Of a DNA stretch of 64,000 bases, positions 16,420 through 63,888 are shown piece by piece. Under the pieces are notes generated by a model. The model did not search any database, was not told the DNA's origin, and saw only the letters and a program-made list of their open reading frames with translations. Source of the stretch: a virus; IMG/VR virus record IMGVR_UViG_3300023181_000025, positions 147,169 to 211,168 of that record. One strand, written 5' to 3'. The first letter of the stretch is position 1, and each line of letters opens with the position of its first letter. The translations under genes and the position numbers were made by a program.

Positions 16420-16448
16420 TTGACAAAAACCGCGAACAATGATTAATT
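16420..16448 (+). promoter_or_regulatory. Leaderless-type sigma70 promoter
   Basis: TTGACA, 17 nt, TTAATT, then 6 nt to the ATG at 16455. First of the recurring promoters. Confidence 0.6.
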
Positions 16449-16454
16449 ACCTCC

Positions 16455-16730
16455 ATGACAGAGCAAAAAACTAAAGACGCTAGGGGCCGCAAGGTTGGTT
16501 CAACCGACACAGTAAACGTGCCCATTTCATTTTTGATTCAAAATAATTTTAAACTAATTCCTGTCCGCCGCAAGTGGGTGGAGCAGATTTGCGCCGCACT
16601 TAATATCGAAATTCCAGACATGGAAGAAAAGGTTAAGATTACCGTTCCTGCCCCGGAAGTGTTGGAAACCGGAGAAAGCCCAGACGATCCAAAGGTGGCC
16701 GTCGCATTTATTTGTGAAGAATTGGATTGA
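16455..16730 (+). CDS. Hypothetical protein, 91 aa
   Basis: Begins with a polar stretch (TKDARGRKVGSTDTVN) like a short DNA-binding tail, then a helix with RRKWVEQICAAL. An acidic Pro-rich C-terminus follows. Predicted to be translated from a leaderless mRNA. Function unknown. Confidence 0.75.
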   Translation: MTEQKTKDARGRKVGSTDTVNVPISFLIQNNFKLIPVRRKWVEQICAALNIEIPDMEEKVKITVPAPEVLETGESPDDPKVAVAFICEELD

Positions 16731-16755
16731 CCTTTAGCTAAAAACCATTATTATC
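16727..16755 (+). promoter_or_regulatory. Leaderless-type promoter of the RuvB-like gene
   Basis: TTGACC, 17 nt, ATTATC, then 6 nt to ATG 16762. The -35 overlaps the stop of the preceding gene. Confidence 0.6.
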
Positions 16756-16761
16756 ACTCAC

Positions 16762-17754
16762 ATGACGACACACACAGACGATTATTTTGAAGGGGTTGTA
16801 GGCCAAACGCACGTAAAGAAAGCATTGTCTTTCTATCTTGATAAGCATCGCCACAATGGATCGGTAATGCCAAACATTTTGCTTACTGGTTTCCGTGGAG
16901 ACGGTAAGAGTCACCTTGCACGTAAGATTGCTCGGAACTTTCCAGACCTTTCCCAGCCTGAGAAAAAGCATAAGGCATTTTATTCTTTTAATGGAGCGTC
17001 CATTAAGAATATTTCAGTTTTTCTTGAGGGGATTTGGACCAAGCTTCAGTCAGAAAATGATTATCTAACGATTTTCATTGATGAGGCCCACGGCCTTCCG
17101 AAATCGGTCCAAACAGCCATGCTTTCCATTATGGAAAAAACCCGTAATCATATGACCAAATATGTTCATAACGATATGGAATATAATTTCGATTTCCGGA
17201 AAGTTAATTTTATTCTTGCGACTACGGAAGACGACGGAATTTTCCATGCTCTTAAAGATCGCCTTACCACCTTTGGGCTTCAGCCATACACTCGAAAAGA
17301 GCTTGGCGAAATTGTCCAAATGGTTGTAGATGATAGGTGTGAAATTAGCGATTCAATGCTAACTAAAATTTCTCATTACATCCGCCGCAATGCTCGCGCG
17401 GCAAATGAAATGGCGAACCATATTCTTTCATTCGGTTGTCCGGTTTTTGAAGATGAGCATTTTGAAGCCCTTAAAGAAAACCTCCACCTTTTGGATTACG
17501 GGATTAATGAAGATGAGCTTCGGGTTCTTGAAGCTTTGAGTGAAGGGGAGTTGAGTCTTGGTCAACTCGCTTGTCGTGTGGGAAGGCCCAGCAGAGCGAT
17601 GCAACACGAACTAGAGCCATACCTTATTTCCCTTAAGCTTATGGAAATTGATGGGAAGCGCCGTATTACTCAAAAAGGAAAGGATTTTCTCGCAAAAGTG
17701 AATGGGACTTTTGAAGAAAAGGTAAAGACTAAAGACAGCGGCGAGCAACTTTAA
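16762..17754 (+). CDS. RuvB-like AAA+ ATPase, 330 aa
   Basis: AAA+ motor closely patterned on RuvB, the Holliday-junction branch migration ATPase. The N-terminus FEGVVGQTHVKKAL resembles RuvB FDDFVGQ. Walker A GFRGDGKS (43-50), Walker B IFIDEAH (104-110), sensor I ATTEDDG and arginine finger DRLTTF are present. The C-terminus has a winged-helix end (KRRITQKGKDFL) as in RuvB. Length matches RuvB. No RuvA or RuvC-like gene is visible here, so it may instead load another replication or recombination factor. Confidence 0.92.
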   Translation: MTTHTDDYFEGVVGQTHVKKALSFYLDKHRHNGSVMPNILLTGFRGDGKSHLARKIARNFPDLSQPEKKHKAFYSFNGASIKNISVFLEGIWTKLQSENDYLTIFIDEAHGLPKSVQTAMLSIMEKTRNHMTKYVHNDMEYNFDFRKVNFILATTEDDGIFHALKDRLTTFGLQPYTRKELGEIVQMVVDDRCEISDSMLTKISHYIRRNARAANEMANHILSFGCPVFEDEHFEALKENLHLLDYGINEDELRVLEALSEGELSLGQLACRVGRPSRAMQHELEPYLISLKLMEIDGKRRITQKGKDFLAKVNGTFEEKVKTKDSGEQL

Positions 17755-17777
17755 TTTTTCTTCGTCATTATTTTCTA

Positions 17778-17805
17778 TTGACAAACTCAAAATTTTAGCT
17801 ATTCT
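17778..17805 (+). promoter_or_regulatory. Sigma70-like promoter
   Basis: TTGACA, 16 nt, TATTCT; 28 nt before ATG 17834, so this transcript has a short leader without a Shine-Dalgarno sequence. Confidence 0.6.
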
Positions 17806-17833
17806 CTAAACACAATACGAAAGACAAAACAAC

Positions 17834-18208
17834 ATGAACACAACTGATACAATTAACAAAATTAAGAAGGCCGGGCATCGAGTTAATATTTCTCACCTGC
17901 GCCGACTCAAGAACAATAAGCATCGAAGCGCCCTCGTCCGCGTTCGCGATGTTAAACCGGACAAGGACGGGAATAAGCCCATGATTAGTCCAACTGGCGG
18001 CGCAACCCATATGCGAATCGAATTCAATGATGGAACCATTCGCGAAGCAAAGTTCGGCGTGTGGCACGAAGACTCTTACGAAAAAGAAACGGGTCGCTAT
18101 AAGTGTCTTGCGCATCTTGCGGAAACCGTGCCCGACAAGTTCGCGGACCTTTTTGAAGACATTAAGGAATCTTCATTGGAAAATGAAAGCTGGGTGATTA
18201 AGCTCTAA
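17834..18208 (+). CDS. Basic hypothetical protein, 124 aa
   Basis: N-terminal half rich in Lys/Arg/His (INISHLRRLKNNKHRSAL-like), C-terminal half acidic with a short helix. Codons are less AT-rich than neighbours, as often seen for highly expressed genes. Possibly nucleic-acid binding. No family recognised. Confidence 0.8.
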   Translation: MNTTDTINKIKKAGHRVNISHLRRLKNNKHRSALVRVRDVKPDKDGNKPMISPTGGATHMRIEFNDGTIREAKFGVWHEDSYEKETGRYKCLAHLAETVPDKFADLFEDIKESSLENESWVIKL

Positions 18209-18233
18209 AAAACAAACAAACAATAACAATAAT

Positions 18234-18527
18234 ATGACTGATACAAACACTACTACGAATTCTCCCACAAACAAGCGGGTTCGCACCGCCAAGCCAAAGG
18301 CTATCAAGCGTGGCCGTCCGCCACGGGTTGACTGGAGCAAGTTCACGCTTCTCTGGAAGTCCCATACCGACAGTGAAATTGCTCATAAGGCGAATTGCAC
18401 CGTTGTCAACGTCTTTCTTCGTCGCAAGCGGCTTATCTCCGCTGCGGCAGACGACAAGAAGGCTTTTTATAGTTGCTCCAAGCCAGCTTATACGAAGTCC
18501 CGCTTTCTAAAGGAAAAGGCAAACTAA
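18234..18527 (+). CDS. AT-hook-like putative DNA-binding protein, 97 aa
   Basis: Contains KRGRPPRVDW (about residues 25-34), an RGRP-type AT-hook core, then a helix-turn-helix-like stretch with SEIAHKANCTVVNVFLRRKRL. This looks like a small DNA-binding regulator or nucleoid-type protein. Followed by a strong terminator. Confidence 0.78.
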   Translation: MTDTNTTTNSPTNKRVRTAKPKAIKRGRPPRVDWSKFTLLWKSHTDSEIAHKANCTVVNVFLRRKRLISAAADDKKAFYSCSKPAYTKSRFLKEKAN

Positions 18528-18566
18528 TATCTCGTGAGTCAAAACGATTGATGTTTGATCTTTATA

Positions 18567-20887: not shown

Positions 20888-21213
20888 AAGAAACTAAAAT
20901 TAAATTCGATTTTAAGTCACAAAGCACAGATGCAAAATTTGTAGCAAAAACATATATTAGAACAGAGGATAGCTCTCTTTTGTTTTTGGCTGATATTTCT
21001 TTTGAACCTAGCGAAGCGAATTGGGCGAAAGGGATTCGAGATATGGCCTCCATTATTTATTCTAAAAACTTTTCTAGTCTTATGAAAGAATACAATATTA
21101 GCTTGAAAAGTTTTGAAATTATTATAGAAAATGTTTCTGGGATTGCGGCATATTACTTTGGGTGCAATGAAATTATAATTAAATCAGATGAATCAAGCAC
21201 AAATAATCAATAA
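20884..21213 (+). CDS. Hypothetical protein, 109 aa
   Basis: Starts on an ATGA overlap. Alternating strands and helices, ending overlapped by the next gene. No family recognised. Confidence 0.75.
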   Translation: MKETKIKFDFKSQSTDAKFVAKTYIRTEDSSLLFLADISFEPSEANWAKGIRDMASIIYSKNFSSLMKEYNISLKSFEIIIENVSGIAAYYFGCNEIIIKSDESSTNNQ

Positions 21214-22333: not shown

Positions 22334-22636
22334 ATGAAGATAGTCACGCGACAAGAATTTATAGATTGGATTAGGTCTAATCATGGGAATAAGAAAATCA
22401 ATATGTCTGAAAATAAGGCGGGCGATCCTTGTGGGTGCCTTATGGTTCAATATGCTCGGGATAAATTTCCTAAAGACTTCTTTAAAAAAGGAAGCTGCGG
22501 TTATGAATCATGGACAAATCAGGGCCGAACAATAGCTAAATTAGATTGTGATATTTGTGAAATTGTTCCCGGTTGGAAATGGGCAAATATTAAAACCTTC
22601 CAGCAGGTAAAAAAGATCTTGACAGAAACGCGCTAA
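22334..22636 (+). CDS. CGC family member 1, 100 aa
   Basis: First of five paralogs defined by TRQ-x-(I/F)ID start, NM-x-E, PCGCLMVQYARD, and an aromatic SCGYESW-like motif. Other copies at 28253, 31507, 32800 and 55777. The CGC next to a conserved Tyr and a second Cys downstream hint at a metal or redox site. Its last codons include a TTGACA box used by the next gene. Confidence 0.85.
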   Translation: MKIVTRQEFIDWIRSNHGNKKINMSENKAGDPCGCLMVQYARDKFPKDFFKKGSCGYESWTNQGRTIAKLDCDICEIVPGWKWANIKTFQQVKKILTETR

Positions 22637-22647
22637 TAAGTAAACGT
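22619..22647 (+). promoter_or_regulatory. Leaderless-type promoter
   Basis: TTGACA, 17 nt, AAACGT, then 6 nt to ATG 22654; the -35 lies inside the 3' end of the preceding CGC-family gene. Confidence 0.5.
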
Positions 22648-22653
22648 ATACCT

Positions 22654-23569: not shown

Positions 23570-23962
23570 ATGAAAACTAAGCAAGAGATCATCGAAGAAA
23601 CGGCAAATTATTACAATCTGAGTAATCGGGCAGTTACTCTTTCAGGTAAATGTAAATATTCAACCAGTGACGGAAGACAATGTGCCGTAGGTAGGTGCTT
23701 TACTGATAAAGAGGCTGACAGCTTTTGTGATTTTGACGGGCCGGTGAGTTTTGTAAACTCAACCCTAAAAGTCAACGCAAATAAAGAGCTTGATGATATT
23801 TTGAAAGAGGAATATCGCGGCCATTCGATTATTTTTTGGATGGATCTTCAAAGTTTTCATGATACACAGGAGAACTGGAATGATGATGGAATTTCTGAGG
23901 TTGGGCTGAAAGAAAAAGCAGAACTTCTTGAAAAGTATGTTGACAAACAAGAGGGAAACTAA
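23570..23962 (+). CDS. NR/FHD family member 2, 130 aa
   Basis: Family features in order: IIEETANYYN, SNR, CKYSTSDGRQCAVGRCFTD, LKEEYRGHSIIFWMDLQSF, HD, NW. The last codons (KYVDKQ) also spell a TTGACA -35 box for the next paralog. Conserved Cys, His and Asp suggest a metal site; function unknown. Confidence 0.87.
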   Translation: MKTKQEIIEETANYYNLSNRAVTLSGKCKYSTSDGRQCAVGRCFTDKEADSFCDFDGPVSFVNSTLKVNANKELDDILKEEYRGHSIIFWMDLQSFHDTQENWNDDGISEVGLKEKAELLEKYVDKQEGN

Positions 23963-23968
23963 TACTTT
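23940..23968 (+). promoter_or_regulatory. Leaderless-type promoter inside the preceding gene
   Basis: TTGACA, 17 nt, TACTTT, then 6 nt to ATG 23975. The -35 is encoded by the Val-Asp-Lys codons near the end of the upstream paralog. Confidence 0.6.
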
Positions 23969-23974
23969 ATTCAC

Positions 23975-24334
23975 ATGACCAAGCAATCAATTATTGAAGA
24001 GACCGCCGCCTATTACAATTTGGGAAATCGTTCGGTTTGCCCTAAAAAGGGCGGGTGCCTCTATTTGAACCCCGAGGGAAAAATGTGTGCTTTTGGTAGG
24101 TGCATGACGGAGGAAGGTCTGGACGCTTATAAGAATTCGGGCGATTACGTTAGAGCCTTAAGTGTTGGAGATAGCGTTGACCATCTTTTGCTGGCAGATT
24201 ATAAGGGCCATTCTGTAGAGTTTTGGACCGACATCCAAATGTTCCATGACATGGAAAATCATTGGACTGAGACCGGCCTTTCCTCTAAAGGCGAAGAATT
24301 TAAGAAAAAACTTCTCAAAAAGTATGTTGACTAA
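23975..24334 (+). CDS. NR/FHD family member 3, 119 aa
   Basis: Tandem paralog of 23570: IIEETAAYYN, NR, CLYLNPEGKMCAFGRCMTE, YKGHSVEFWTDIQMFHD, HW, GLSSKG. Ends with the conserved KKYVD, whose GTTGAC codons again build a -35 box. Confidence 0.87.
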   Translation: MTKQSIIEETAAYYNLGNRSVCPKKGGCLYLNPEGKMCAFGRCMTEEGLDAYKNSGDYVRALSVGDSVDHLLLADYKGHSVEFWTDIQMFHDMENHWTETGLSSKGEEFKKKLLKKYVD

Positions 24335-24355
24335 CTGCGCTTTTTAGTGTAACTT
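24327..24355 (+). promoter_or_regulatory. Promoter of a candidate RNA
   Basis: TTGACT (inside the upstream stop), 17 nt, TAACTT. Expected start about 24362; no ORF follows for 200 nt, so it would drive non-coding RNA. Confidence 0.5.
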
Positions 24356-24361
24356 CTTTTC

Positions 24362-24450
24362 ATAGCGCAACACAGGGGACCGCGCCCCTCCGAAAATTGT
24401 AGTGATACGGTGACTACTAAACTAAGCTTCTGCGAGATTTAGTTTGAGGA
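24362..24450 (+). ncRNA. Candidate structured RNA upstream of tRNA
   Basis: Three consecutive hairpins: AGGGG/CCCCT (24374-24389), GTAGT/ACTAC (24399-24417) and the 7-bp AAACTAA/TTAGTTT (24419-24445). A promoter precedes it and the tRNA promoter follows. No protein-coding frame. It is not a second tRNA, as no T-arm consensus is present. Confidence 0.45.
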
Positions 24451-24459
24451 ATAAAGAGG

Positions 24460-24488
24460 TTGACAGGGAAAAGAAAAAACGATAGATT
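24460..24488 (+). promoter_or_regulatory. tRNA promoter
   Basis: TTGACA, 17 nt, TAGATT, 11 nt before the tRNA 5' end. Confidence 0.6.
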
Positions 24489-24499
24489 GTAAAAACAAA

Positions 24500-24573
24500 G
24501 GGGCGATAGCTTAACCGGTGAAAGCAGCGGTTTCATAAACCGTTGAGTGAGGGTTCGACCCCCTCTCGCCCTA
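24500..24573 (+). tRNA. tRNA with CAU anticodon (Met or Ile2)
   Basis: Full cloverleaf by eye: 7-bp acceptor (GGGGCGA with TCGCCCT, first pair G-U), D-arm GCTT...AAGC, anticodon stem GCGGT/ACCGT with loop TTCATAA, and T-arm GAGGG-TTCGACC-CCCTC. CCA is not encoded. A CAU anticodon can be elongator or initiator Met, or Ile2 that needs lysidine at C34. A TilS-like gene 620 nt downstream makes Ile2 attractive. Confidence 0.92.
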
Positions 24574-24574
24574 C

Positions 24575-25099
24575 TTATAAAATTCTTTCAGGGTTGTGTA
24601 ATTCCATATGGCAATTAGAGCACAATAAATCACATTTGTCTATTTCTAGCAATAGAGAGGCCCAATTTGTATTGGAGAGTTTTCTAGAGTCCAGCTTAAA
24701 AGTTTTTTCTTTTGGATCTCTGTGATGGAAACACAGGGCGGAATAATTTTTATCGTATCCGCATATTTTGCATTTCCCGCCCTTCAAATCAACTAAAGTT
24801 TTCTTTCTGTCTAAAGAAACGAGTTTTTGACGTTCGTTATTCTTTCTATTTTGCTCTTGTTTATTATCTTTATAGAACTGCTTGCAACTACATTCGTTAG
24901 AGCAAAACTTTAGTTGATTCCCCTCTAATCTTTTGGAACACATTAAACAAAACGTATCGGGAGAATGAGTTTTTTTAGTATTTAATCCATGTTTTCTAAG
25001 CCAATACCTTATATTGGTTTGACTGCAATTAAGTTTAATTGCGATTTGATAAGTAGACATGCCTTGTTCAATTAATTCTTTTAATGTTTCATAGCTCAT
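24575..25099 (-). CDS. HNH homing-type endonuclease, 174 aa
   Basis: Minus strand, converging on the CAU tRNA with its stop 2 nt beyond the tRNA end. N-terminal helix-turn-helix (LKELIEQGMSTYQIAIKLN), a middle zinc finger (CLMCSKR, CSNEC), and an HNH nuclease domain (CKICGY, FHHRD, LCSNCHMELH) at the C-terminus. This HTH plus Cys-rich HNH layout is typical of phage free-standing homing endonucleases. Confidence 0.92.
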   Translation of the reverse strand: MSYETLKELIEQGMSTYQIAIKLNCSQTNIRYWLRKHGLNTKKTHSPDTFCLMCSKRLEGNQLKFCSNECSCKQFYKDNKQEQNRKNNERQKLVSLDRKKTLVDLKGGKCKICGYDKNYSALCFHHRDPKEKTFKLDSRKLSNTNWASLLLEIDKCDLLCSNCHMELHNPERIL

Positions 25100-25157
25100 A
25101 AAGTTATTTACACAAAAAATATAAATTGTGAACTAGTATGTTTGACTTTTTTATTTC

Positions 25158-25185
25158 TTGACTTTTCTCCATAATTTTCAATACT
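25158..25185 (+). promoter_or_regulatory. Leaderless-type promoter of tilS-like gene
   Basis: TTGACT, 16 nt, AATACT, then 7 nt to ATG 25193. Confidence 0.55.
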
Positions 25186-25192
25186 GCCCCCC

Positions 25193-25834: not shown

Positions 25835-25847
25835 AACTAATCACCTT

Positions 25848-26171
25848 ATGACAACGACAGAACAAAAACTATTTGACGCTCTTTACCGAATCTGCAAAAA
25901 TGCCCATAGAAAGGAAAGGCATGGGTTTACTGATGATATCGTTGCTCCCCTATTCCTCAATGAGGCCCGCGCACTGCTAGAAGAAATTGAAGCCTCAAAT
26001 CAAAGATTTCGCTGTGGCATGAATCCGGGAGAAACGTGCTGCATTGTTTCTCAGCATCCGGGGTTGTCCCCGATTTTTGACTACGAAAATGGTGTGGGGA
26101 TTTTCTATTGTTTCGCTCTAAGCCCCACAGAAGCCAAAGAAATTGCTAAAAAACTAAACAAATCGGAATAA
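25848..26171 (+). CDS. Hypothetical protein, 107 aa
   Basis: ATG 25848 chosen over an upstream in-frame TTG at 25809. N-terminal helix (TEQKLFDALYRICKNA) and a central CGMNPGETCC block with three Cys. No family recognised. Confidence 0.75.
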   Translation: MTTTEQKLFDALYRICKNAHRKERHGFTDDIVAPLFLNEARALLEEIEASNQRFRCGMNPGETCCIVSQHPGLSPIFDYENGVGIFYCFALSPTEAKEIAKKLNKSE

Positions 26172-26175
26172 AATT

Positions 26176-26439: not shown

Positions 26440-26484
26440 AAAAAACGAAGTAAATAATCTAAGAATATATAACGACTAAATAAT

Positions 26485-26808: not shown

Positions 26809-26836
26809 TTGACTTTTTCTATAATTTACCCATATT
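26809..26836 (+). promoter_or_regulatory. Leaderless-type promoter
   Basis: TTGACT, 16 nt, CATATT, then 6 nt to ATG 26843; the -35 overlaps the preceding stop. Confidence 0.5.
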
Positions 26837-26842
26837 TATAAC

Positions 26843-27067: not shown

Positions 27068-27078
27068 ACTTTAATAAT

Positions 27079-27288: not shown

Positions 27289-27292
27289 TAAT

Positions 27293-27796: not shown

Positions 27797-27806
27797 TATC
27801 AATAAT

Positions 27807-28235: not shown

Positions 28236-28252
28236 AACATAAATATTAATAT

Positions 28253-28531: not shown

Positions 28532-28542
28532 ATATTAATAAT

Positions 28543-28791
28543 ATGTCCAATCAACCAATTTCCGCAAACCCTTATGAAGTCACAGACGAACAACTGGCGA
28601 TTGATTATGTTTTTCGTGCCGCGCATGGAGCGCAACGAAATCCTCATGTCGCTGCAATTGTTTTGCAAAAGTATGTAATGGATTTGGAGGCTAGGGGCTG
28701 GAAATGGCAACCAGAAGAATTTCCTAGTGTGGTGAAAGAAAATATTATGCTCAATCAAGAACGGGAGATTATTGATTTGACAATAACCTGA
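28543..28791 (+). CDS. Hypothetical protein, 82 aa
   Basis: Helical, with VTDEQLAIDYVFRAAHGAQ and a short basic/aromatic patch (GWKWQPEEF). The end overlaps the next promoter's -35. Confidence 0.75.
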   Translation: MSNQPISANPYEVTDEQLAIDYVFRAAHGAQRNPHVAAIVLQKYVMDLEARGWKWQPEEFPSVVKENIMLNQEREIIDLTIT

Positions 28792-28804
28792 ATTCCTCCA
28801 TTCT
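28777..28804 (+). promoter_or_regulatory. Leaderless-type promoter
   Basis: TTGACA, 16 nt, CATTCT, then 6 nt to ATG 28811; -35 inside the upstream gene. Confidence 0.55.
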
Positions 28805-28810
28805 AAGCGC

Positions 28811-29275
28811 ATGACCAACAGCAACTCACCAGTCTATGGCGATCTTCTTAAAGACGTTTACATCCCTGATATTTGCGAGCGCGTAATGTATAAATGGGCG
28901 GGTAAAGAAAAGGCTGAACCGCACCGCGTTGAGGGTTGGTATAAAGCAATTCCAGAGCGCGAAAAGCCTGCGGAAGATGCTGATTTCATGGAGAGGATCG
29001 GCTGGGATTTGGGGAAAGAGGATCGTGAGCGTCGTGCAGAGCGTGGTGATGTTCGTGTTATTGCTTGTTCTCGTGAGGAAGCAACTCATGTTTCGATCTA
29101 CGCTGTGGCGGGTGCGCTTGTTCGTATCGACAGGGTGGAGCCAACGAAAAAGCATGTTGAATGGAGTGCGGAACTGATTGAAGAAACGCGCAAAACTTGG
29201 CTTAACTTTTATTGCCGCGATGCAATGTATTTTGGTGCTGAGACTGAAAAATTAGTTTCCACACATAGATTCTAA
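28811..29275 (+). CDS. Hypothetical protein, 154 aa
   Basis: Charged, with a run ERDRERRAERGD-like centre (KEDRERRAERGDVRVI) and a C-terminal helix region. Codons are somewhat more GC-rich than neighbours. No family recognised. Confidence 0.8.
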   Translation: MTNSNSPVYGDLLKDVYIPDICERVMYKWAGKEKAEPHRVEGWYKAIPEREKPAEDADFMERIGWDLGKEDRERRAERGDVRVIACSREEATHVSIYAVAGALVRIDRVEPTKKHVEWSAELIEETRKTWLNFYCRDAMYFGAETEKLVSTHRF

Positions 29276-29279
29276 CCAC

Positions 29280-29765
29280 ATGGTTACTCCTTCCACGCAC
29301 TACGTTAAGTTCACTGGTAAATTCCGCGACCTTAAGGGTCAAGGATACCGATTCTGGAAGGCTTTTGGGCGTAATTACAGAGTTTATAGCAAAACTTTAA
29401 ACGCTCGTAATCTCACTATATGGCAACATCATGGAGGCTATTTTGAGGTTGCTGATTTGTATGAGCTTTCTGTGATGCTTGTTGAGTTGATTCGGGGAGG
29501 GTTCCAAGGGGTTACGCCAAACATCGGCATATTTTCAGGGCAACAGCGTTATACTATGGTGTTTGATCGACAAGAAAACAAATTTGTTGATGCTATTGGT
29601 CCGAATACAGCAAGGTATGCATTAAAAAATAACGATGACGCTGGGTTTGATGCGTGGTATGAGCGTTATCGGGAATATTGCCTCTGTAAGGATACGATTG
29701 AGGAAATCCAGCACCTACTATCTTCGGGGCAAATCGAGATAGCTCTTGACAATCGGAAGAAATAA
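29280..29765 (+). CDS. Hypothetical protein, 161 aa
   Basis: Aromatic N-terminus (GQGYRFWKAFGRNYRVYSK), a helix (ELSVMLVELIRGGF) and a C-terminal helix ending LDNRKK, whose codons hold the -35 of the next gene. Function unknown. Confidence 0.8.
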   Translation: MVTPSTHYVKFTGKFRDLKGQGYRFWKAFGRNYRVYSKTLNARNLTIWQHHGGYFEVADLYELSVMLVELIRGGFQGVTPNIGIFSGQQRYTMVFDRQENKFVDAIGPNTARYALKNNDDAGFDAWYERYREYCLCKDTIEEIQHLLSSGQIEIALDNRKK

Positions 29766-29773
29766 TCCATAGT
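29746..29773 (+). promoter_or_regulatory. Leaderless-type promoter
   Basis: TTGACA, 16 nt, CATAGT, then 6 nt to ATG 29780. The 18 nt from the -35 on (TTGACAATCGGAAGAAAT) recur at 30271, suggesting promoter duplication. Confidence 0.55.
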
Positions 29774-29779
29774 TGATCC

Positions 29780-30040: not shown

Positions 30041-30041
30041 A

Positions 30042-30280
30042 ATGAAAAGTTTAATCTTAGGGTTTATTTTGGGGTTCATGATGGTTTTTGGCGTGTGGTG
30101 GCTCAAAACTCCGAATCCCCCATTGGTTTGCTTTCTTCTGGCGGTAGCCTCTATCATTTACCCTCTCAAGGTAAAGATAGATGAGTTAAGCACCAAAATT
30201 TATGAATTCGACAAAGATTGCGGCGGAATTCTTGTAGATTTCCTGAAATGTGTTGAGGGTAAAAAGGATGTTGACAATCG
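30042..30280 (+). repeat. Recent intragenomic duplication, copy 1
   Basis: Matches 49638-49876 on the same strand, about 19.6 kb away. The 3' two thirds are identical by eye, and the copies diverge right after GTTGACAATC, at the promoter -35. Confidence 0.85.
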
Positions 30281-30290
30281 GAAGAAATAG
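30042..30290 (+). CDS. Duplicated membrane protein, copy 1, 82 aa
   Basis: Two hydrophobic stretches (ILGFILGFMMVFGVWWL and VCFLLAVASIIYPL) and a polar C-terminus with one Cys pair. Nearly identical in DNA to 49638-49880 (about 8 differences in 238 nt, and a tract near 140 nt without any). Ends in VDNRKK, overlapping a promoter -35. Function unknown. Confidence 0.8.
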   Translation: MKSLILGFILGFMMVFGVWWLKTPNPPLVCFLLAVASIIYPLKVKIDELSTKIYEFDKDCGGILVDFLKCVEGKKDVDNRKK

Positions 30291-30298
30291 TTCATTCT
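30271..30298 (+). promoter_or_regulatory. Leaderless-type promoter
   Basis: TTGACA, 16 nt, CATTCT, then 6 nt to ATG 30305. Shares 18 nt with the promoter at 29746. Confidence 0.55.
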
Positions 30299-30304
30299 AC
30301 TCAC

Positions 30305-30533: not shown

Positions 30534-30824
30534 ATGAAAGGCTTAAAAGTTACTACTATTCCAGAACAACGGGTAGAAACTTTCAATGATGGAGAATCAT
30601 TGGGGTTTTTAAATCAGTTTGAAATAAATCGTCTTCGTATTGAAGTAAAGGATTTCTATAAGGGAAAACCCTCTACCGCTGACACTGGCCTTGAATTGCT
30701 GTTTGACGGTCAGACGATCAGAATTGACTCTAACGGTAATTTGGAATCTTGGCCGCGTGGTCTATTTGATATGTTGGATAACCAATTGATGGTTTTGATT
30801 GATTGGCCCCAAGAAAATAGTTGA
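30534..30824 (+). CDS. Hypothetical protein, 96 aa
   Basis: ATG 30534 directly after the previous stop. Alpha/beta pattern with LELLFDGQTIRIDSNGN. Ends PQENS, overlapping the next -35. Confidence 0.75.
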   Translation: MKGLKVTTIPEQRVETFNDGESLGFLNQFEINRLRIEVKDFYKGKPSTADTGLELLFDGQTIRIDSNGNLESWPRGLFDMLDNQLMVLIDWPQENS

Positions 30825-30848
30825 CAAATAAGTCCTCTCAAGTAGAGT
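30821..30848 (+). promoter_or_regulatory. Leaderless-type promoter
   Basis: TTGACA, 16 nt, TAGAGT, then 6 nt to ATG 30855. Confidence 0.6.
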
Positions 30849-30854
30849 AACTAC

Positions 30855-31184
30855 ATGAAGCGATACGAAGTCAACCTTTGTAATTCTGAAACCTTTCAAG
30901 GTATGATCGAAGCTCCCGATGGCGATTGGGTTGCTTATGACGAGCTTGGTGTGGTCTCGATGGACAAAGATAAGTTTTATAAAATTGCTAAGTCAATGGA
31001 GCCAGAAAAGAATTGTCGCTTATCTGGTGATGGAAAGCCTTTGTCAAAAGACAAACAAAGATGGCTGAATATTATGGTGGGGGAGATTCGCGCATTGCGC
31101 GAACTTTACGGCCAAGAAAACCCTTTAATAAAAGAAATCTGCACAAATCTACTCGTCGAGGCCATTCTTCTTGACGGCGAGTAA
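30855..31184 (+). CDS. Hypothetical protein, 109 aa
   Basis: N-terminal beta region with APDGDWVAYDEL, then a C-terminal all-helical part (MVGEIRALRELYGQ, EICTNLLVEAIL). No family recognised. Confidence 0.77.
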   Translation: MKRYEVNLCNSETFQGMIEAPDGDWVAYDELGVVSMDKDKFYKIAKSMEPEKNCRLSGDGKPLSKDKQRWLNIMVGEIRALRELYGQENPLIKEICTNLLVEAILLDGE

Positions 31185-31198
31185 AATTCAATTAATTT
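31171..31198 (+). promoter_or_regulatory. Leaderless-type promoter
   Basis: TTGACG, 16 nt, TAATTT, then 7 nt to ATG 31206; -35 in the end of the upstream gene. Confidence 0.5.
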
Positions 31199-31205
31199 AC
31201 CCCAC

Positions 31206-31471: not shown

Positions 31472-31500
31472 TTGACAAATTAATTTACAACGAATAGATT
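31472..31500 (+). promoter_or_regulatory. Leaderless-type promoter
   Basis: TTGACA, 17 nt, TAGATT, then 6 nt to ATG 31507. One of the best matches. Confidence 0.65.
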
Positions 31501-31506
31501 ATCCCC

Positions 31507-32066: not shown

Positions 32067-32273
32067 ATGAATAAACCATTTCTACTTATTGCGGGGCGTA
32101 ATTATTACCCCTGTGGCGGCACAGAAGATTGGATTGACCGTTTTGAAACAGAAGAACAGGCCAAAGAAGCCGTTATAATCGACAAATCAAGTAGCTGGGG
32201 CTACACCATTAATGGAAATTATTATGATTGGTTTTCAATAGTAAATCTTGACACTTGGCAAAAAGACAGTTAA
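32067..32273 (+). CDS. Conserved small phage protein, 68 aa
   Basis: FLLIAGRNYYPCGGTEDWIDRF then EEQAKEA is a pattern I recognise from many phage hypothetical proteins. Its C-terminal codons contain the next -35. Confidence 0.8.
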   Translation: MNKPFLLIAGRNYYPCGGTEDWIDRFETEEQAKEAVIIDKSSSWGYTINGNYYDWFSIVNLDTWQKDS

Positions 32274-32277
32274 ACAT
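32248..32277 (+). promoter_or_regulatory. Leaderless-type promoter
   Basis: TTGACA, 18 nt, AAACAT, then 6 nt to ATG 32284; weaker spacing. Confidence 0.45.
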
Positions 32278-32283
32278 ACCCCT

Positions 32284-35591: not shown

Positions 35592-35619
35592 TTGACATCA
35601 AAGGCGTAAAATATAAGAT
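35592..35619 (+). promoter_or_regulatory. Leaderless-type promoter
   Basis: TTGACA, 16 nt, TAAGAT, then 6 nt to ATG 35626. Confidence 0.65.
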
Positions 35620-35625
35620 GAGCTT

Positions 35626-36676: not shown

Positions 36677-36705
36677 TTGACTTTACCGTGAGCAACCTTT
36701 AGATT
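36677..36705 (+). promoter_or_regulatory. Sigma70-like promoter
   Basis: TTGACT, 17 nt, TAGATT, 8 nt before ATG 36714. Confidence 0.5.
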
Positions 36706-36713
36706 GCGAACAT

Positions 36714-42527: not shown

Positions 42528-42556
42528 TTGACATTCGCAAAGAATCTTGATATTTT
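42528..42556 (+). promoter_or_regulatory. Leaderless-type promoter
   Basis: TTGACA, 17 nt, TATTTT, then 6 nt to ATG 42563. Confidence 0.62.
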
Positions 42557-42562
42557 AACTCT

Positions 42563-42931
42563 ATGACTAAGCAAGCAATTATCGAAGAAACTGCCGCATT
42601 TTACAATAGCGGTAATCGCGGGCAAACCTCTATTGGCTATATTTATGTAAATAAATATGGTAACAAATGTGGGGTAGGTCGCTGTATGACAGATGACGGC
42701 ATCGCAGTGTTTGGGGGATTTGGGGATGATGTTATTGAACTTGAAAAAAAGGTTAAGGATTCCTATAGCGGCCTTGATGATATTTTGAAAGAGGAATATC
42801 GCGGCCATTCGGTTGATTTCTGGGCGGACATCCAAGGGTTTCATGACAATAGCGAGAATTGGGATAAAGAAGGAATTTCGTTTCGGGGTTTAGCATCTAA
42901 AGCATTCCTTCTTGAAAAATATTCCAGTTGA
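42563..42931 (+). CDS. NR/FHD family member 7, 122 aa
   Basis: IIEETAAFYN, NR, YIYVNKYGNKCGVGRCMTDD, LKEEYRGHSVDFWADIQGFHD, NW. A 24-nt stretch around LKEEYRGHS is DNA-identical to the member at 23570 (42786 region), showing a close relation. Confidence 0.87.
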   Translation: MTKQAIIEETAAFYNSGNRGQTSIGYIYVNKYGNKCGVGRCMTDDGIAVFGGFGDDVIELEKKVKDSYSGLDDILKEEYRGHSVDFWADIQGFHDNSENWDKEGISFRGLASKAFLLEKYSS

Positions 42932-42955
42932 CACTTAGCAAAATCCTAATACCTT
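42928..42955 (+). promoter_or_regulatory. Leaderless-type promoter
   Basis: TTGACA, 16 nt, TACCTT, then 6 nt to ATG 42962; -35 at the upstream stop. Confidence 0.58.
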
Positions 42956-42961
42956 CATTTT

Positions 42962-45018: not shown

Positions 45019-45047
45019 TTGACAATTTGCTGCATATTGGATAATTT
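45019..45047 (+). promoter_or_regulatory. Leaderless-type promoter
   Basis: TTGACA, 17 nt, TAATTT, then 6 nt to ATG 45054. Best example of the motif. Confidence 0.68.
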
Positions 45048-45053
45048 ACACCC

Positions 45054-46382: not shown

Positions 46383-46412
46383 TTGACAAACCCCTCATAA
46401 TATTAATAATAT
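46383..46412 (+). promoter_or_regulatory. Leaderless-type promoter
   Basis: TTGACA, 18 nt, TAATAT, then 6 nt to ATG 46419; begins 2 nt after the terminator. Confidence 0.58.
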
Positions 46413-46418
46413 CCCCAT

Positions 46419-47112: not shown

Positions 47113-47496
47113 ATGAAAACATACGCAGAAATACAGGGCGAGCCACCCTTTAATTGGTTTAATTTTTTGAGCCAAGAAAACATTTCATCCGAGGAATGGC
47201 AAGACGCTAAGATTAAATCAAGTTCATGGGTTACCTGCGCTTGTGGCAACCAATGCAGTATTATCCCTCGCTCAATTTACGGCGCGCCTCTTGATAATGA
47301 GCTAGAGGCATTAGGAGGGGGTCAAGGCTTTCATGGGGCAATCGAATTGAAGCTTAAAGGGGTGGCGCTGGAATACCTTAAACTTATTGAAAAAAGGTCC
47401 GCCTATTTGATCAAAAATATAAACGAAGAGATTGAAAGGGAGATTATGGATCATGAAGAAGAAATTAAAAGGCTCAAAAAACTACTTATTTCTTGA
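47113..47496 (+). CDS. Conserved phage protein with CACGNQC, 127 aa
   Basis: SSSWVTCACGNQCSIIPR followed by YGAPLDNELEALG is a combination I recognise from other phages; the Cys trio may bind metal. C-terminal coiled coil (INEEIEREIMDHEEEIKRL). Function unknown. Confidence 0.83.
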   Translation: MKTYAEIQGEPPFNWFNFLSQENISSEEWQDAKIKSSSWVTCACGNQCSIIPRSIYGAPLDNELEALGGGQGFHGAIELKLKGVALEYLKLIEKRSAYLIKNINEEIEREIMDHEEEIKRLKKLLIS

Positions 47497-47521
47497 TATT
47501 TGCGAAAAATAAGTGTATAAC
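47493..47521 (+). promoter_or_regulatory. Leaderless-type promoter
   Basis: TTGATA, 17 nt, TATAAC, then 6 nt to ATG 47528. Confidence 0.6.
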
Positions 47522-47527
47522 GAAGGC

Positions 47528-47756: not shown

Positions 47757-47784
47757 TTGACAAATTTAATAAACGGTCCATTCT
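47757..47784 (+). promoter_or_regulatory. Leaderless-type promoter
   Basis: TTGACA, 16 nt, CATTCT, then 6 nt to ATG 47791. Confidence 0.58.
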
Positions 47785-47790
47785 TTTCGC

Positions 47791-48344: not shown

Positions 48345-48680
48345 ATGGACATTAAAACCCTTGAAGAATTGATTCAAATTTTGGATCAAAATAAAATTAA
48401 ATATTATGGGGAAACCTCCGAAACGGTCATTTACCCCGCCATGAAAAAAGAATACAAAGGATATATTAGGATTCATTTTAGTCCAGAAAATCCTCTTCCC
48501 GATGTTTGGGAAAGCATTCTTATTTCAAATATTAAAGGAATCGAGGTCTCTGTTTCTGGAACTCGTATTGTGAGCGGAAACGGTGCAATTGATGGTATGC
48601 TATTGCCGGAATATGCCATGCGGCGAGAAAGCCTTAACGAAAAGAGGAAATCGCTTGGATTCCAGCCTATTGGATATTGA
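48345..48680 (+). CDS. Hypothetical protein, 111 aa
   Basis: Alpha/beta with ISNIKGIEVSVSGTRIVSG in the middle; no motif. Its last codons include the -35 of the next gene. Confidence 0.75.
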   Translation: MDIKTLEELIQILDQNKIKYYGETSETVIYPAMKKEYKGYIRIHFSPENPLPDVWESILISNIKGIEVSVSGTRIVSGNGAIDGMLLPEYAMRRESLNEKRKSLGFQPIGY

Positions 48681-48705
48681 CTTTTCCAGCAAGCCTTTGT
48701 ATTGT
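48677..48705 (+). promoter_or_regulatory. Leaderless-type promoter
   Basis: TTGACT, 17 nt, TATTGT, then 7 nt to ATG 48713. Confidence 0.55.
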
Positions 48706-48712
48706 CGTTTAT

Positions 48713-49885: not shown

Positions 49886-49913
49886 TTGACAAGTTTCAAT
49901 AATCCATTACCTT
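49886..49913 (+). promoter_or_regulatory. Sigma70-like promoter
   Basis: TTGACA, 16 nt, TACCTT, 9 nt before ATG 49923; with a 19-nt spacer, CTTAAT would sit 6 nt from the ATG. Confidence 0.45.
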
Positions 49914-49922
49914 AATCCCGTT

Positions 49923-50123
49923 ATGCCTGAGCAACAATTAATTAATTTGCAAATCACTCCCGGAGAGCTTTCCACAATTAAGTGTGGGGTTTATGCTCTT
50001 ATTGGCAGACAGCGGGAAATTATCGCCTCGGCAAAAGAGCGGGGACAATTTATTCTTGTGGATATTAAAAAGGACGAATTGAAAAAACTAGAGGAAGTTT
50101 ACCAAAAACTCTTGACAGCTTGA
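49923..50123 (+). CDS. Hypothetical protein, 66 aa
   Basis: Helical, with TIKCGVYALIGRQREIIASAKERG and a Lys-rich end. No family recognised. Its end contains the next -35. Confidence 0.73.
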   Translation: MPEQQLINLQITPGELSTIKCGVYALIGRQREIIASAKERGQFILVDIKKDELKKLEEVYQKLLTA

Positions 50124-50140
50124 TATATTTATAAATAATA
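50112..50140 (+). promoter_or_regulatory. Leaderless-type promoter
   Basis: TTGACA, 17 nt, ATAATA, then 6 nt to ATG 50147. Confidence 0.62.
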
Positions 50141-50146
50141 GTCCTT

Positions 50147-50814: not shown

Positions 50815-50843
50815 TTGACAGATTAACAAAAATATCCAATACT
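50815..50843 (+). promoter_or_regulatory. Leaderless-type promoter
   Basis: TTGACA, 17 nt, AATACT, then 6 nt to ATG 50850. Confidence 0.62.
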
Positions 50844-50849
50844 ACCTGT

Positions 50850-52048: not shown

Positions 52049-52077
52049 TTGACACGAGGGCTTGAATCTCTACAATT
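52049..52077 (+). promoter_or_regulatory. Leaderless-type promoter
   Basis: TTGACA, 17 nt, ACAATT, then 6 nt to ATG 52084. Confidence 0.6.
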
Positions 52078-52083
52078 ACGCCC

Positions 52084-52828: not shown

Positions 52829-52857
52829 TTGACAAACACGTCAAAATTTCAATAATA
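52829..52857 (+). promoter_or_regulatory. Promoter with AATTAATTATTGACA upstream element
   Basis: TTGACA, 17 nt, ATAATA, 9 nt before ATG 52867. Preceded by GGGCGGCGGAAATTAATTA, shared with promoters at 53582 and 56496. Confidence 0.58.
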
Positions 52858-52866
52858 CCACCATAT

Positions 52867-53581: not shown

Positions 53582-53610
53582 TTGACTTCATAAGAACAAC
53601 CCATTAGCTT
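53582..53610 (+). promoter_or_regulatory. Leaderless-type promoter
   Basis: TTGACT, 17 nt, TAGCTT, then 7 nt to ATG 53618; preceded by GAATTAATTA. Confidence 0.55.
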
Positions 53611-53617
53611 CATTTAT

Positions 53618-53995: not shown

Positions 53996-54292
53996 ATGAA
54001 TTACACAGTTTCAAAAGCAAGCTGGGAAAAGCAAACTATTTATATCCTAGAAAACGGTTGGGTTCTTACCGAGGAACATAATCAATGTTATGGTTATTTT
54101 GTAAAAAGCTTGCGATCCCCACAAGGAAAAGTTTGGCTAGCCTGCAATGGCGATAGACACTTATATTATAATGAAGTGTTTAAAACAGATAAATATATCG
54201 CTTTGCCAGATTTTGCGGCTGGATGGAAGGAAACTAAATTCCCTGAGTTGGTTCGCTTTGATAAATCATTTTATAAAAGGATTGACAACTAA
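53996..54292 (+). CDS. Hypothetical protein, 98 aa
   Basis: Aromatic, beta-rich (NYTVSKASWEKQTIYILENGW). No family recognised. Its last codons (RIDN) contain the next -35. Confidence 0.75.
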   Translation: MNYTVSKASWEKQTIYILENGWVLTEEHNQCYGYFVKSLRSPQGKVWLACNGDRHLYYNEVFKTDKYIALPDFAAGWKETKFPELVRFDKSFYKRIDN

Positions 54293-54309
54293 CCGAATTG
54301 TTACATAAT
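54282..54309 (+). promoter_or_regulatory. Leaderless-type promoter
   Basis: TTGACA, 16 nt, CATAAT, then 6 nt to ATG 54316. Confidence 0.62.
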
Positions 54310-54315
54310 ACGGCC

Positions 54316-54489
54316 ATGCAAATAACTTCTATTGGTTTTCTAAACACTTCTGAAGGTGTAACACTGGTTGCTTGCACCCTAGAAAACTCTCATGGTTTCC
54401 GCCAGAAGGTTTCTCGGGAAGAGTTTGAAAAGGTTCGCGGCGATCAAGAACAAATGAAAAATCTTTTCCTTTTGAAATATGAAAATTAG
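54316..54489 (+). CDS. Small protein, 57 aa
   Basis: Beta strand start (MQITSIGFLNTSEGVTLVAC), helical end. No family recognised. Confidence 0.7.
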   Translation: MQITSIGFLNTSEGVTLVACTLENSHGFRQKVSREEFEKVRGDQEQMKNLFLLKYEN

Positions 54490-54500
54490 AATGGATACTA

Positions 54501-55437: not shown

Positions 55438-55465
55438 TTGACATTGGCGGGAAATTAGCTAAAGT
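55438..55465 (+). promoter_or_regulatory. Leaderless-type promoter
   Basis: TTGACA, 16 nt, TAAAGT, then 6 nt to ATG 55472. Confidence 0.58.
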
Positions 55466-55471
55466 TTGGAC

Positions 55472-55742: not shown

Positions 55743-55770
55743 TTGACAAATAGTTGGAATTATAAAAAAT
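55743..55770 (+). promoter_or_regulatory. Leaderless-type promoter
   Basis: TTGACA, 16 nt, AAAAAT, then 6 nt to ATG 55777. Confidence 0.55.
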
Positions 55771-55776
55771 AGCCTC

Positions 55777-56495: not shown

Positions 56496-56524
56496 TTGAC
56501 ATATTAGTTCGGTTATTGAATAAT
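56496..56524 (+). promoter_or_regulatory. Leaderless-type promoter with upstream element
   Basis: TTGACA, 17 nt, AATAAT, then 6 nt to ATG 56531; preceded by GGGGCGGCAAATTTAATTA. Confidence 0.62.
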
Positions 56525-56530
56525 AAGCGC

Positions 56531-57450: not shown

Positions 57451-57479
57451 TTGACAAAAAAGGCACGATCGAACACACT
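57451..57479 (+). promoter_or_regulatory. Leaderless-type promoter
   Basis: TTGACA, 17 nt, CACACT, then 6 nt to ATG 57486. Confidence 0.55.
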
Positions 57480-57485
57480 AGCTCT

Positions 57486-57746: not shown

Positions 57747-57775
57747 TTGACTGCCGCGCCCCTTTATCTAAACTT
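57747..57775 (+). promoter_or_regulatory. Leaderless-type promoter
   Basis: TTGACT, 17 nt, AAACTT, then 6 nt to ATG 57782. TTTTTCCCTATAG repeats at 57376 and 57708 lie upstream. Confidence 0.52.
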
Positions 57776-57781
57776 GCGGCC

Positions 57782-58495: not shown

Positions 58496-58524
58496 TTGAC
58501 CCGCGCCGGGTTATTAACTAATGT
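58496..58524 (+). promoter_or_regulatory. Sigma70-like promoter
   Basis: TTGACC, 17 nt, TAATGT, 8 nt before ATG 58533. Confidence 0.52.
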
Positions 58525-58532
58525 CTTTTTAG

Positions 58533-58865
58533 ATGAAAACAACGCCAATCTTTTCTGATTCAATTTTTGGATACTATCTCAGCCAGCATAGCGAGGGCGG
58601 TCGGAAACAAATTGATTCTATTTTTTGCTATACTAAGGGTGACGGGGGATTCCTCCGCGCCATTTATTACAAAACAAAAAAACGCTCTACCCGGACAGAA
58701 TCGCGAAAACAAATTTATTTTGTTCCAAACGAATTAGCGGACCCGAAACTAATCAAAGCAGAATTTACCCGCGCCATGCAATTTTTTTCCGCAAAGGATG
58801 GTATGCTTTGGGGAGCCTATTACGAACTTACCAAGCTGGGAAAATTTGTGGAAATTAATGTTTGA
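58533..58865 (+). CDS. Hypothetical protein, 110 aa
   Basis: Basic/aromatic, with KTKKRSTRTESRKQIYF. No family recognised. Its end overlaps the next -35. Confidence 0.75.
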   Translation: MKTTPIFSDSIFGYYLSQHSEGGRKQIDSIFCYTKGDGGFLRAIYYKTKKRSTRTESRKQIYFVPNELADPKLIKAEFTRAMQFFSAKDGMLWGAYYELTKLGKFVEINV

Positions 58866-58889
58866 CATGGGATAAAGAATAGCTAATCT
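58862..58889 (+). promoter_or_regulatory. Leaderless-type promoter
   Basis: TTGACA, 16 nt, TAATCT, then 6 nt to ATG 58896. Confidence 0.62.
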
Positions 58890-58895
58890 CCCCTT

Positions 58896-60042: not shown

Positions 60043-60070
60043 TTGTCATTCGCAAATTATCTAATAATCT
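60043..60070 (+). promoter_or_regulatory. Leaderless-type promoter
   Basis: TTGTCA, 16 nt, TAATCT, then 7 nt to ATG 60078. Confidence 0.52.
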
Positions 60071-60077
60071 TGTCTTT

Positions 60078-60298: not shown

Positions 60299-60326
60299 TT
60301 GCAAAATAATCCCTATTAACTAAATT
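60299..60326 (+). promoter_or_regulatory. Leaderless-type promoter
   Basis: TTGCAA, 16 nt, TAAATT, then 7 nt to ATG 60334; -35 diverges from consensus. Confidence 0.42.
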
Positions 60327-60333
60327 CATCCAT

Positions 60334-61180: not shown

Positions 61181-61246
61181 TCACCCCGAAAAACGCTTAG
61201 TTTTCTTTCTTGTCATTTAACTAAAACTAACCCATCTTTCGCTCGT

Positions 61247-62736: not shown

Positions 62737-62737
62737 A

Positions 62738-62749
62738 AATGCGGAATTT
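62738..62749 (+). repeat. AATGCGGAATTT motif, copy 4
   Basis: Variant of the motif, after the RadC-like stop. Confidence 0.4.
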
Positions 62750-62802
62750 ATTTCGATTCTTTTCTTTCCTTTGTTTTAGATAAAAGCCATATTGGTCACG
62801 TA

Positions 62803-63055
62803 ATGAAAACGCAAGAGAACATGAAACACACGCCGGGGCCTTGGAATTACGGAATCGCATCCGAATGTATTATTACTCCCCAAGGTCATGAGATTGCTAG
62901 TTTAGCAGATTCAGACTCTACTGAAAAAGAAACCAATGCCCGCCTCATCGCAGCGGCTCCGGTTGCGCGGAAAAATCGCCATCGCCAAGCAATACGAAGA
63001 TATCTGCGATTGGCTCTATAGGGAGCGCATCGCCCCCGTCATTGAGTGCTGGTAA
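62803..63055 (+). pseudogene. HTPGPW-type phage protein with probable frameshift
   Basis: MKHTPGPWNYG then NARLIAAAP are hallmarks of a common phage family. At AAAAA (62971-62975) the reading frame is lost: the plain frame ends as VARKNRHRQAIRRY, while removing one A gives VARKIAIAKQYEDICDWLYR up to TAA 63053, which looks like the natural end. Either a real homopolymer frameshift or a sequence error. Confidence 0.7.
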
Positions 63056-63141
63056 AACCCCGCCTGATGAGATCCCCGGCACGGGATCGAAACGCCTCCG
63101 GGCGTCGCGGCATGCAAACCAACTGCCCACCTAATCCCCCT

Positions 63142-63357
63142 ATGAAACACGCGCAAGCAATCGTATTTCCCGCCCGTCGCCACAATCTTAACCGGCGCGT
63201 GCGCTCATCAAGCGTTGAAACCCTTAAGACTCTGGCACTCGTCACAATGGCTGTGCTAGCTCTTGCGGGGATCATCGTGGCAGATAACTACAATCCACCC
63301 GCGCCAGATATGAGCAAGGCCCCGGCATGCGTGAGAGAATTGCTTTTGATTAAATAA
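63142..63357 (+). CDS. Single-pass membrane protein, 71 aa
   Basis: ATG 63142 used. Basic start (VFPARRHNLNRRVR), membrane segment about 29-47, Pro-rich periplasmic end. Type II-like topology. Function unknown. Confidence 0.68.
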   Translation: MKHAQAIVFPARRHNLNRRVRSSSVETLKTLALVTMAVLALAGIIVADNYNPPAPDMSKAPACVRELLLIK

Positions 63358-63367
63358 TTATTCCGAT

Positions 63368-63592
63368 ATGAAAATTACCGATATGAAAACACGCCCCACA
63401 AAAGAACAAATCGAAATCCTAGCTGCAAAAGCTTCGGACCCGGAACCCGTATGGGATTTTGTCGGATCTCTCCCCTTCGGATCAACCCTGCCCGACAATC
63501 TTGCAAACCTAGCTATGGATGCACGTTTGTATGGATGGGATAAAAGCATTGTGGACGCAATTCGCGAGGGAATCAAAATGGCGGTTTATTAA
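63368..63592 (+). CDS. Hypothetical protein, 74 aa
   Basis: Start MKITDMKTRPTKEQIEIL, helical with a Pro-rich middle. An in-frame ATG at 63383 is a shorter alternative. Confidence 0.72.
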   Translation: MKITDMKTRPTKEQIEILAAKASDPEPVWDFVGSLPFGSTLPDNLANLAMDARLYGWDKSIVDAIREGIKMAVY

Positions 63593-63600
63593 ATTATAAG

Positions 63601-63629
63601 TTGACCGGCGCGGGAAATCCAATTAGTTT
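63601..63629 (+). promoter_or_regulatory. Leaderless-type promoter
   Basis: TTGACC, 17 nt, TAGTTT, then 7 nt to ATG 63637. Confidence 0.55.
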
Positions 63630-63636
63630 CTCCCTA

Positions 63637-63888
63637 ATGAGTGCAACCCAAACGATTCCAGAAAGCGAAACCATCGAATGTGAAGGCGTGAAGTTTTATT
63701 TTTTGGATTTGATGGAAGATGATAGCCGCAACTTTATTCTATACGTCTTGCTAGACGGGGAGTGGGTCGCGGCTGATTATGTCTGCCCATTCTACTGCCG
63801 GGATATGACTCTCAATTTTCTTGCGACCTATCTTAAGCAAGTTGGCGCGCTTTCCGTTAGCGTGGAGGATTTCGGGCCGGACCAATAA
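63637..63888 (+). CDS. Acidic protein, 83 aa
   Basis: ATG 63637 used over an in-frame TTG at 63601, which is the -35 box. Beta-rich, CEGVKFYFLDLMEDDSR and ADYVCPFYCRDM. No family recognised. Confidence 0.75.
   Translation: MSATQTIPESETIECEGVKFYFLDLMEDDSRNFILYVLLDGEWVAADYVCPFYCRDMTLNFLATYLKQVGALSVSVEDFGPDQ

Follow-up and report, generated by a model that had tools for sequence, protein, structure and literature searches.

Sigma70-type promoters abutting start codons in a large phage without Shine-Dalgarno sequences: a probable array of leaderless genes

Here we analyse a 64,000-nt stretch of DNA (the window), comprising bases 147169-211168 at one end of the 211168-base IMG/VR virus record IMGVR_UViG_3300023181_000025 (labelled G000), which belongs to an uncultured large phage. 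Between window positions 16420 and 63888, the + strand carries about 100 small open reading frames (ORFs), 43 of which have a promoter-like site abutting the start codon. These sites very probably constitute an array of sigma70-type promoters (TTGACA, a 16-17-nt spacer and TANNNT), from which host RNA polymerase would produce leaderless or near-leaderless mRNAs translated independently of a Shine-Dalgarno (SD) sequence, each promoter and its ORF forming a self-contained cassette that is probably expressed early. The same style of start is found in genomes of Patescibacteria, a plausible host group.

Promoter geometry in the array

Candidate sites were scored blind, without the sites placed by hand in an earlier note on this stretch, with a sigma70 -35/-10 matrix of E. 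coli type; ORFs of 50 aa or more were each taken to start at their first ATG, gene starts being sequence-based calls made in this analysis. The gap is the number of nucleotides between the end of the -10 and the start codon, the background is the mean over gaps 12-59, and the cut-off for a promoter site (score of at least 6) lets through about one false site per gap. On the + strand between 16.4 and 64 kb, 22, 13 and 11 sigma70-like sites lie at gaps 6, 7 and 8, respectively, against a mean of 0.98 per gap (Poisson P ~2e-22 for the gap-6 count). The 6-nt spacing is thus enriched when its distribution is scored blind, and the claim of the earlier note that an array at leaderless distance would not arise by chance is borne out by this scoring and by the controls described below. 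When ORFs of 40 aa or more are used and every start is counted once, at its best gap, 43 starts have a site, 21 of them at gap 6, 13 at 7 and 9 at 8; the hand count (29 at gap 6 and 8 at gap 7) agrees with this in its total, the peak being somewhat broader than had been described. The spacer is 16 nt in 24 of the 43 promoters and 17 nt in 16. The 43 sites combine a TTGACA-like -35, a TATAAT-like -10 and a 16-18-nt spacer above chance, and their conservation is confined to the two hexamers, with no longer conserved sequence. Of 36 promoters measured, 16 have a -35 that starts within the preceding ORF.

Each hexamer also gives a signal of its own. TTGACA alone, without regard to the -10, occurs 11 times at 28 nt and 11 times at 29 nt before ATG-initiated ORFs of at least 40 aa (0.4 expected at each distance; 22 versus 0.8 for the two combined, + strand, 16.4-64 kb), and its overall distribution in this region is strongly biased, with 61 copies on the + strand versus 9 on the - strand. 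TANNNT alone precedes 10 and 11 array starts at gaps 6 and 7 (1.8 expected per gap) and, over the whole of G000, 28 starts at gap 6 (7.3 expected). The same blind scoring gives no peak at gaps 6-8 on the opposite strand or in the reversed sequence. Stretches of T4 and phiKZ have neither a TTGACA peak at 28-29 nt nor a comparable gap-6 peak, and a pool of Bacillota genomes has no peak at leaderless distances. A chance origin of the geometry is ruled out by these strand, reversed-sequence, other-gap and other-genome controls. The first 16.4 kb of the window, which the earlier note had correctly described as free of the pattern, contains 0 sites at gaps 6-7. The pattern is confirmed at 16420-63640, where the note had placed it, and is not confined there: because the 100-147 kb region of the record, upstream of the window, shows it as well (12 sites at gap 6 versus 0.5 expected), the promoter class is not limited to these coordinates, and its restriction to the window is ruled out.

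Sigma70 transcription starts about 7 bp past the -10. A gap of 6 nt would place +1 on the A of the ATG, giving a leaderless mRNA from host RNA polymerase, and the other gaps would place it within 1-2 nt of the start codon; the predicted leaders are 0-2 nt long, and translation would proceed without an SD sequence. Host RNA polymerase most likely reads the array genes, given promoters of the canonical host type. A phage-specific polymerase motif was considered and rejected, the conserved sequence being an ordinary -35/-10, and no RNA polymerase was found among the 22 large phage proteins scanned, which are a subset of the proteome. By analogy with other large phages, canonical promoters of this host type, together with small accessory genes, suggest that the array is probably an early region. 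Each unit would act as an autonomous cassette of promoter and ORF, and about 35 bp of leaderless promoter could be enough to make a gene self-sufficient, a property that would suit genes that are gained and lost.

The 43 predicted leaderless-type promoters, all on the + strand, extend from the -35 to the base before the ATG. The first lies at 16420..16454 (ATG 16455; gap 6, spacer 17, score 7.7), and the second, at 16727..16761 (score 9.7), precedes a RuvB/clamp-loader-like AAA gene (16762-17754). Given with the ORF start and the score, they continue with 21152..21187 (ORF 21188, 6.5), 22619..22653 (22654, 7.3), 23940..23974 (23975, 8.2), 25158..25192 (25193, 7.7), 26809..26842 (26843, 7.4), 28777..28810 (28811, 7.8), 29244..29279 (29280, 6.1) and 29746..29779 (29780, 8.8). 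Between 30 and 40 kb they are found at 30271..30304 (30305, 7.8), 30821..30854 (30855, 9.9), 31171..31205 (31206, 6.2), 31472..31506 (31507, 10.9), 32248..32283 (32284, 7.6), 35592..35625 (35626, 10.0) and 36677..36713 (36714, gap 8, 9.3), and between 40 and 50 kb at 42528..42562 (42563, 10.0), 42928..42961 (42962, 8.4), 45019..45053 (45054, gap 8, 8.4), 46383..46418 (46419, gap 8, 10.2), 47493..47527 (47528, 8.8), 47757..47790 (47791, 7.8), 48677..48712 (48713, 8.0) and 49886..49922 (49923, 6.9). The next stretch holds those at 50112..50146 (50147, 10.2), 50815..50849 (50850, 10.1), 52049..52083 (52084, 11.7), 52829..52866 (52867, gap 8, 6.4), 53582..53617 (53618, 7.7), 54282..54315 (54316, 10.9), 54464..54500 (54501, gap 8, 7.1), 55438..55471 (55472, 9.3), 55743..55776 (55777, 8.2), 56496..56530 (56531, 10.9), 57451..57485 (57486, 9.1), 57747..57781 (57782, 9.0), 58496..58532 (58533, gap 8, 6.3) and 58862..58895 (58896, 8.3). 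The last four lie at 60043..60077 (60078, 6.5), 60299..60333 (60334, 6.5), 61210..61246 (61247, gap 8, 6.4) and 63601..63636 (63637, 7.2).

Start-codon contexts and gene content

SD sequences are not enriched in any region of the genome (3-15% of starts by region versus 6-15% in the control), and in the array an SD core precedes 3% of starts versus 6-13% in the control. Start regions are generally A-rich throughout the genome, and two kinds of start codon can be told apart by their immediate context. C occupies position -1 at 21 of the 43 promoter-adjacent starts versus 14 of the 99 others (P 3e-5), and 39 of the 43 have a pyrimidine there; a C-rich -1 position is expected with a pyrimidine/purine transcription initiator. 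Among the other starts, AAT-ATG and TAT-ATG are the most frequent contexts. Many genes without a promoter sit close behind the preceding gene (median 27 nt) and look like SD-less followers in short operons. The array fits about 43 predicted transcription units, each beginning at a start codon, plus some SD-less followers; the description of its genes in the earlier note as individually expressed holds for about 43 of the roughly 100 and not for the many that resemble operon followers.

The record is a tailed-phage genome, encoding a terminase large subunit (TerL), a DnaE-type DNA polymerase, a ribonucleotide reductase and a minor tail protein. The TerL gene (L005:14115-16295, record positions) holds an intein splicing domain (Pfam PF14890, residues 32-274). 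Most of the array genes have no known function; the array also includes RadC, SprT-like and QueC/PP-loop members. A Cys-rich paralogous family (GxxCAVGxCMTEE-like) has about six copies across window positions 23672-42879, and PHROG 31716, which may or may not equal this family, matches seven array proteins. A 239-nt duplication of 97% identity (window 30041-30279 and 49637-49875) represents a recent copy of a small ORF within the array.

Related phages and the question of the host

No nucleotide relatives of the record were found in INPHARED (50,697 phage records, megablast sensitivity), and large relatives were found through DnaE (G004 at 59% identity, G012 at 39%). TANNNT lies at gap 6 before 19 starts in G004 (4.0 expected) and 26 in G012 (6.0 expected), and the same promoter peaks are strong in these two phages and weaker in G014 and G002. 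Only thirteen array ORFs have homologues in the relatives found in this way. For gene 16762, a single-sequence search gave no close relatives, the distant ones being obtained by alignment; in the G004 and G014 homologues the promoter abuts the start as well, with differing spacer sequences. A pooled test was made on 80 related large-phage loci carrying homologues of this gene, in which TTGACA peaks at 29 nt (28 versus 2.2 expected) and 31 nt (20) and gene starts show no excess of SD (8% versus 8%). Because the peaks recur in the relatives and in the 80-locus pool without SD, the predicted start style is a trait of a large-phage clade, part of which has looser spacing.

Two further features of the relatives were observed. 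The spacer of the leaderless-type promoters of G012, which occur on both strands, is A-rich and conserved (about ATAAAAAT), in contrast to the spacers in the window array. The DnaE match in G004 (L017:10001-13455) occupies 3455 nt for about 853 residues, suggesting an insertion of about 900 nt, such as an intein or intron.

In GTDB genomes, the sole phage-like DnaE relative found is carried by a Candidatus Woesebacteria (Patescibacteria) metagenome-assembled genome (MAG), on a phage-like contig of 11 kb, the other matches being Lactobacillus sequences at about 30%. TANNNT at gap 6 is found 30 times in this MAG (6.0 expected), and is raised in the MAG and in four other Patescibacteria genomes sampled, with a total of 65 of 587 starts versus 15.2 expected, an excess of about 8-9% of starts; SD is weak in Patescibacteria (17% versus 9% in the control). 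In the same pipeline, Bacillota have SD before 51% of starts and no gap-6 peak (3 versus 7.2), and a TerL search of Bacillota genomes gave no match. The 20-nt upstream profile of the phage correlates at 0.78 with that of Patescibacteria and at 0.12 with that of Bacillota. The host-style comparison covered Patescibacteria and Bacillota; the sequence of a fifth other Patescibacteria genome was mostly N, and the middle region of G021, likewise mostly N, was uninformative. The DnaE relative on the Woesebacteria contig, together with the matching start architecture and profile, makes Patescibacteria or their relatives a plausible host of the phage. The Patescibacteria genomes G019, G025, G032, G052 and G070 show TANNNT enriched exactly 6 nt before starts and weak SD, which hints at leaderless genes throughout the phylum. 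The literature searched yielded no report of Patescibacteria initiating translation on leaderless mRNAs.

Because Patescibacteria genomes show the same geometry, the phage may simply follow the style of a host whose genes are leaderless and SD-poor, in which case the geometry is inherited and no phage strategy. This explanation is compatible with an array of leaderless promoters, and we give it about an even chance of being right. The Patescibacteria pools and the Woesebacteria MAG have the same gap-6 signal with little SD, but a Patescibacteria host is only plausible, and the TTGACA-N28/29-ATG pattern is denser in the array (22 in 47.6 kb) than in the MAG (13 matches in ~900 kb, a count not limited to ORF starts), phage early regions and chromosomes not being strictly comparable. 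It might further be proposed, tentatively and with some doubt as to the whole, that leaderless starts from a canonical -35/-10 are a major mode in Patescibacteria as well as in a clade of large phages that lack SD and infect them, the phages having made of it minimal cassettes of ~35 bp that supply transcription and translation start and are freely gained and lost. If true, leaderless translation would be common among Patescibacteria, a group accounting for a large part of bacterial diversity.

Other readings of the geometry and known systems

Several results weigh against the reading of the array as leaderless, self-contained cassettes, or against parts of it. In the window, more than half of the array genes lack a start-abutting promoter, and the 22 of 43 promoters at gaps 7-8 could leave leaders of 1-2 nt; what the promoter placement, the -1 C and the missing SD support is leaders of 0-2 nt, and the strictly leaderless transcripts of the earlier note are to be qualified to that extent. 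Among the relatives, G001 has no gap-6 TANNNT peak, and promoters turn over: for 18 homologue pairs with a promoter in G000, 6 of the 18 relatives keep one, and most of the 66 gene 16762 homologues have no adjacent promoter. TANNNT at gap 6 is only modestly raised in the 80-locus pool (24 versus 12.9, with 33 at gap 5), its counts at gaps 5 and 8 equalling or exceeding that at gap 6. As regards the host, a TerL search of 287 Patescibacteria genomes gave no match.

It is very improbable that the true starts lie deeper in the ORFs behind ordinary leaders, the leaderless appearance being a product of mis-annotation. The starts were called from sequence only, and in the G004 homologue of gene 16762 an ATG precedes the homologous region by 37 codons; the promoter in G004, however, adjoins precisely that upstream start. 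In only 2 of the 43 ORFs does an SD-like site precede an internal start in the first 30 codons, similarity within a paralogous gene family begins exactly at the ATG in 3 of 4 copies, and some homologues (51540 and the gene at record position 119927) align from residue 1. We regard as equally improbable that the TANNNT next to the ATG is an A/T-rich translation-initiation element and not a -10, with no transcription start at that point. Such an element might be looked for in a genome without SD whose start regions are A-rich, but it would not account for the coupling of TANNNT to TTGACA at 16-17-nt spacing on the coding strand, nor for the difference in context between starts without a promoter (AAT/TAT-ATG) and the C-rich promoter-adjacent ones. 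Least probable is that the repeats are asymmetric operator-like (stoperator-type) sites over the -35 boxes, bound by a phage repressor: they are short, strand-biased and widely dispersed, and mycobacteriophage L5 has operators of the same general kind, but no sequence is conserved outside the -35 and -10 hexamers.

SD sequences are taken for granted by gene finders and expression models of large metagenomic phages, whereas in the array the promoter itself would be the start signal. If this is true, promoter position could fix start codons, define transcription units from sequence alone and help host assignment. Two things appear to be new: that leaderless promoters of the canonical -35/-10 type form the main class in a clade of large phages lacking SD, and that Patescibacteria show a parallel signal.

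Leaderless expression has precedents, and the view of the earlier note that it is rare as a phage strategy is overstated, given the Thermus phages phiYS40 and P23-45 and the geometry of Patescibacteria. The middle and late mRNAs of phiYS40 are reported to be mostly leaderless (reviewed in PMC3594737), and by this published description it is likewise a large phage with most of one expression class leaderless; the difference lies in the class, middle/late in phiYS40 and probably early here, with canonical TTGACA/TANNNT in a genome without SD. In P23-45 (EU100883), TTATTC or TATTCT boxes stand directly before the ATG in several genes, a -10-adjacent layout like that of the array, but SD precedes about 60% of its genes and an array of -35 elements is absent; its middle/late promoters belong to the extended -10 class (PMC7403470).

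The T4 genome contains many small genes with host sigma70-type early promoters in one region, and the array resembles it in this grouping. It differs in that the T4 stretch is SD-rich (56%; 56-59% in the T4 and phiKZ stretches) and has no TANNNT or TTGACA peak at leaderless distances, whereas the array has these peaks and no SD. In cellular genes, TANNNT before the ATG is an established mark of leaderless (TA-led) bacterial genes (PMC3160421), and the phage has both of the features used there, TANNNT about 12 bp upstream above chance and the absence of SD. The pattern of a -10 region adjacent to the ORF is common in Deinococcus-Thermus, and the Deinococcus -10 can act without a -35 (PMC12340547). 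In these genes the TANNNT abuts the start as it does in the array, which differs in having a strong TTGACA. What sets the array apart is the combination of a canonical -35 and -10, a dense arrangement, a complete lack of SD, its recurrence within a clade and the similar signal of Patescibacteria genomes.

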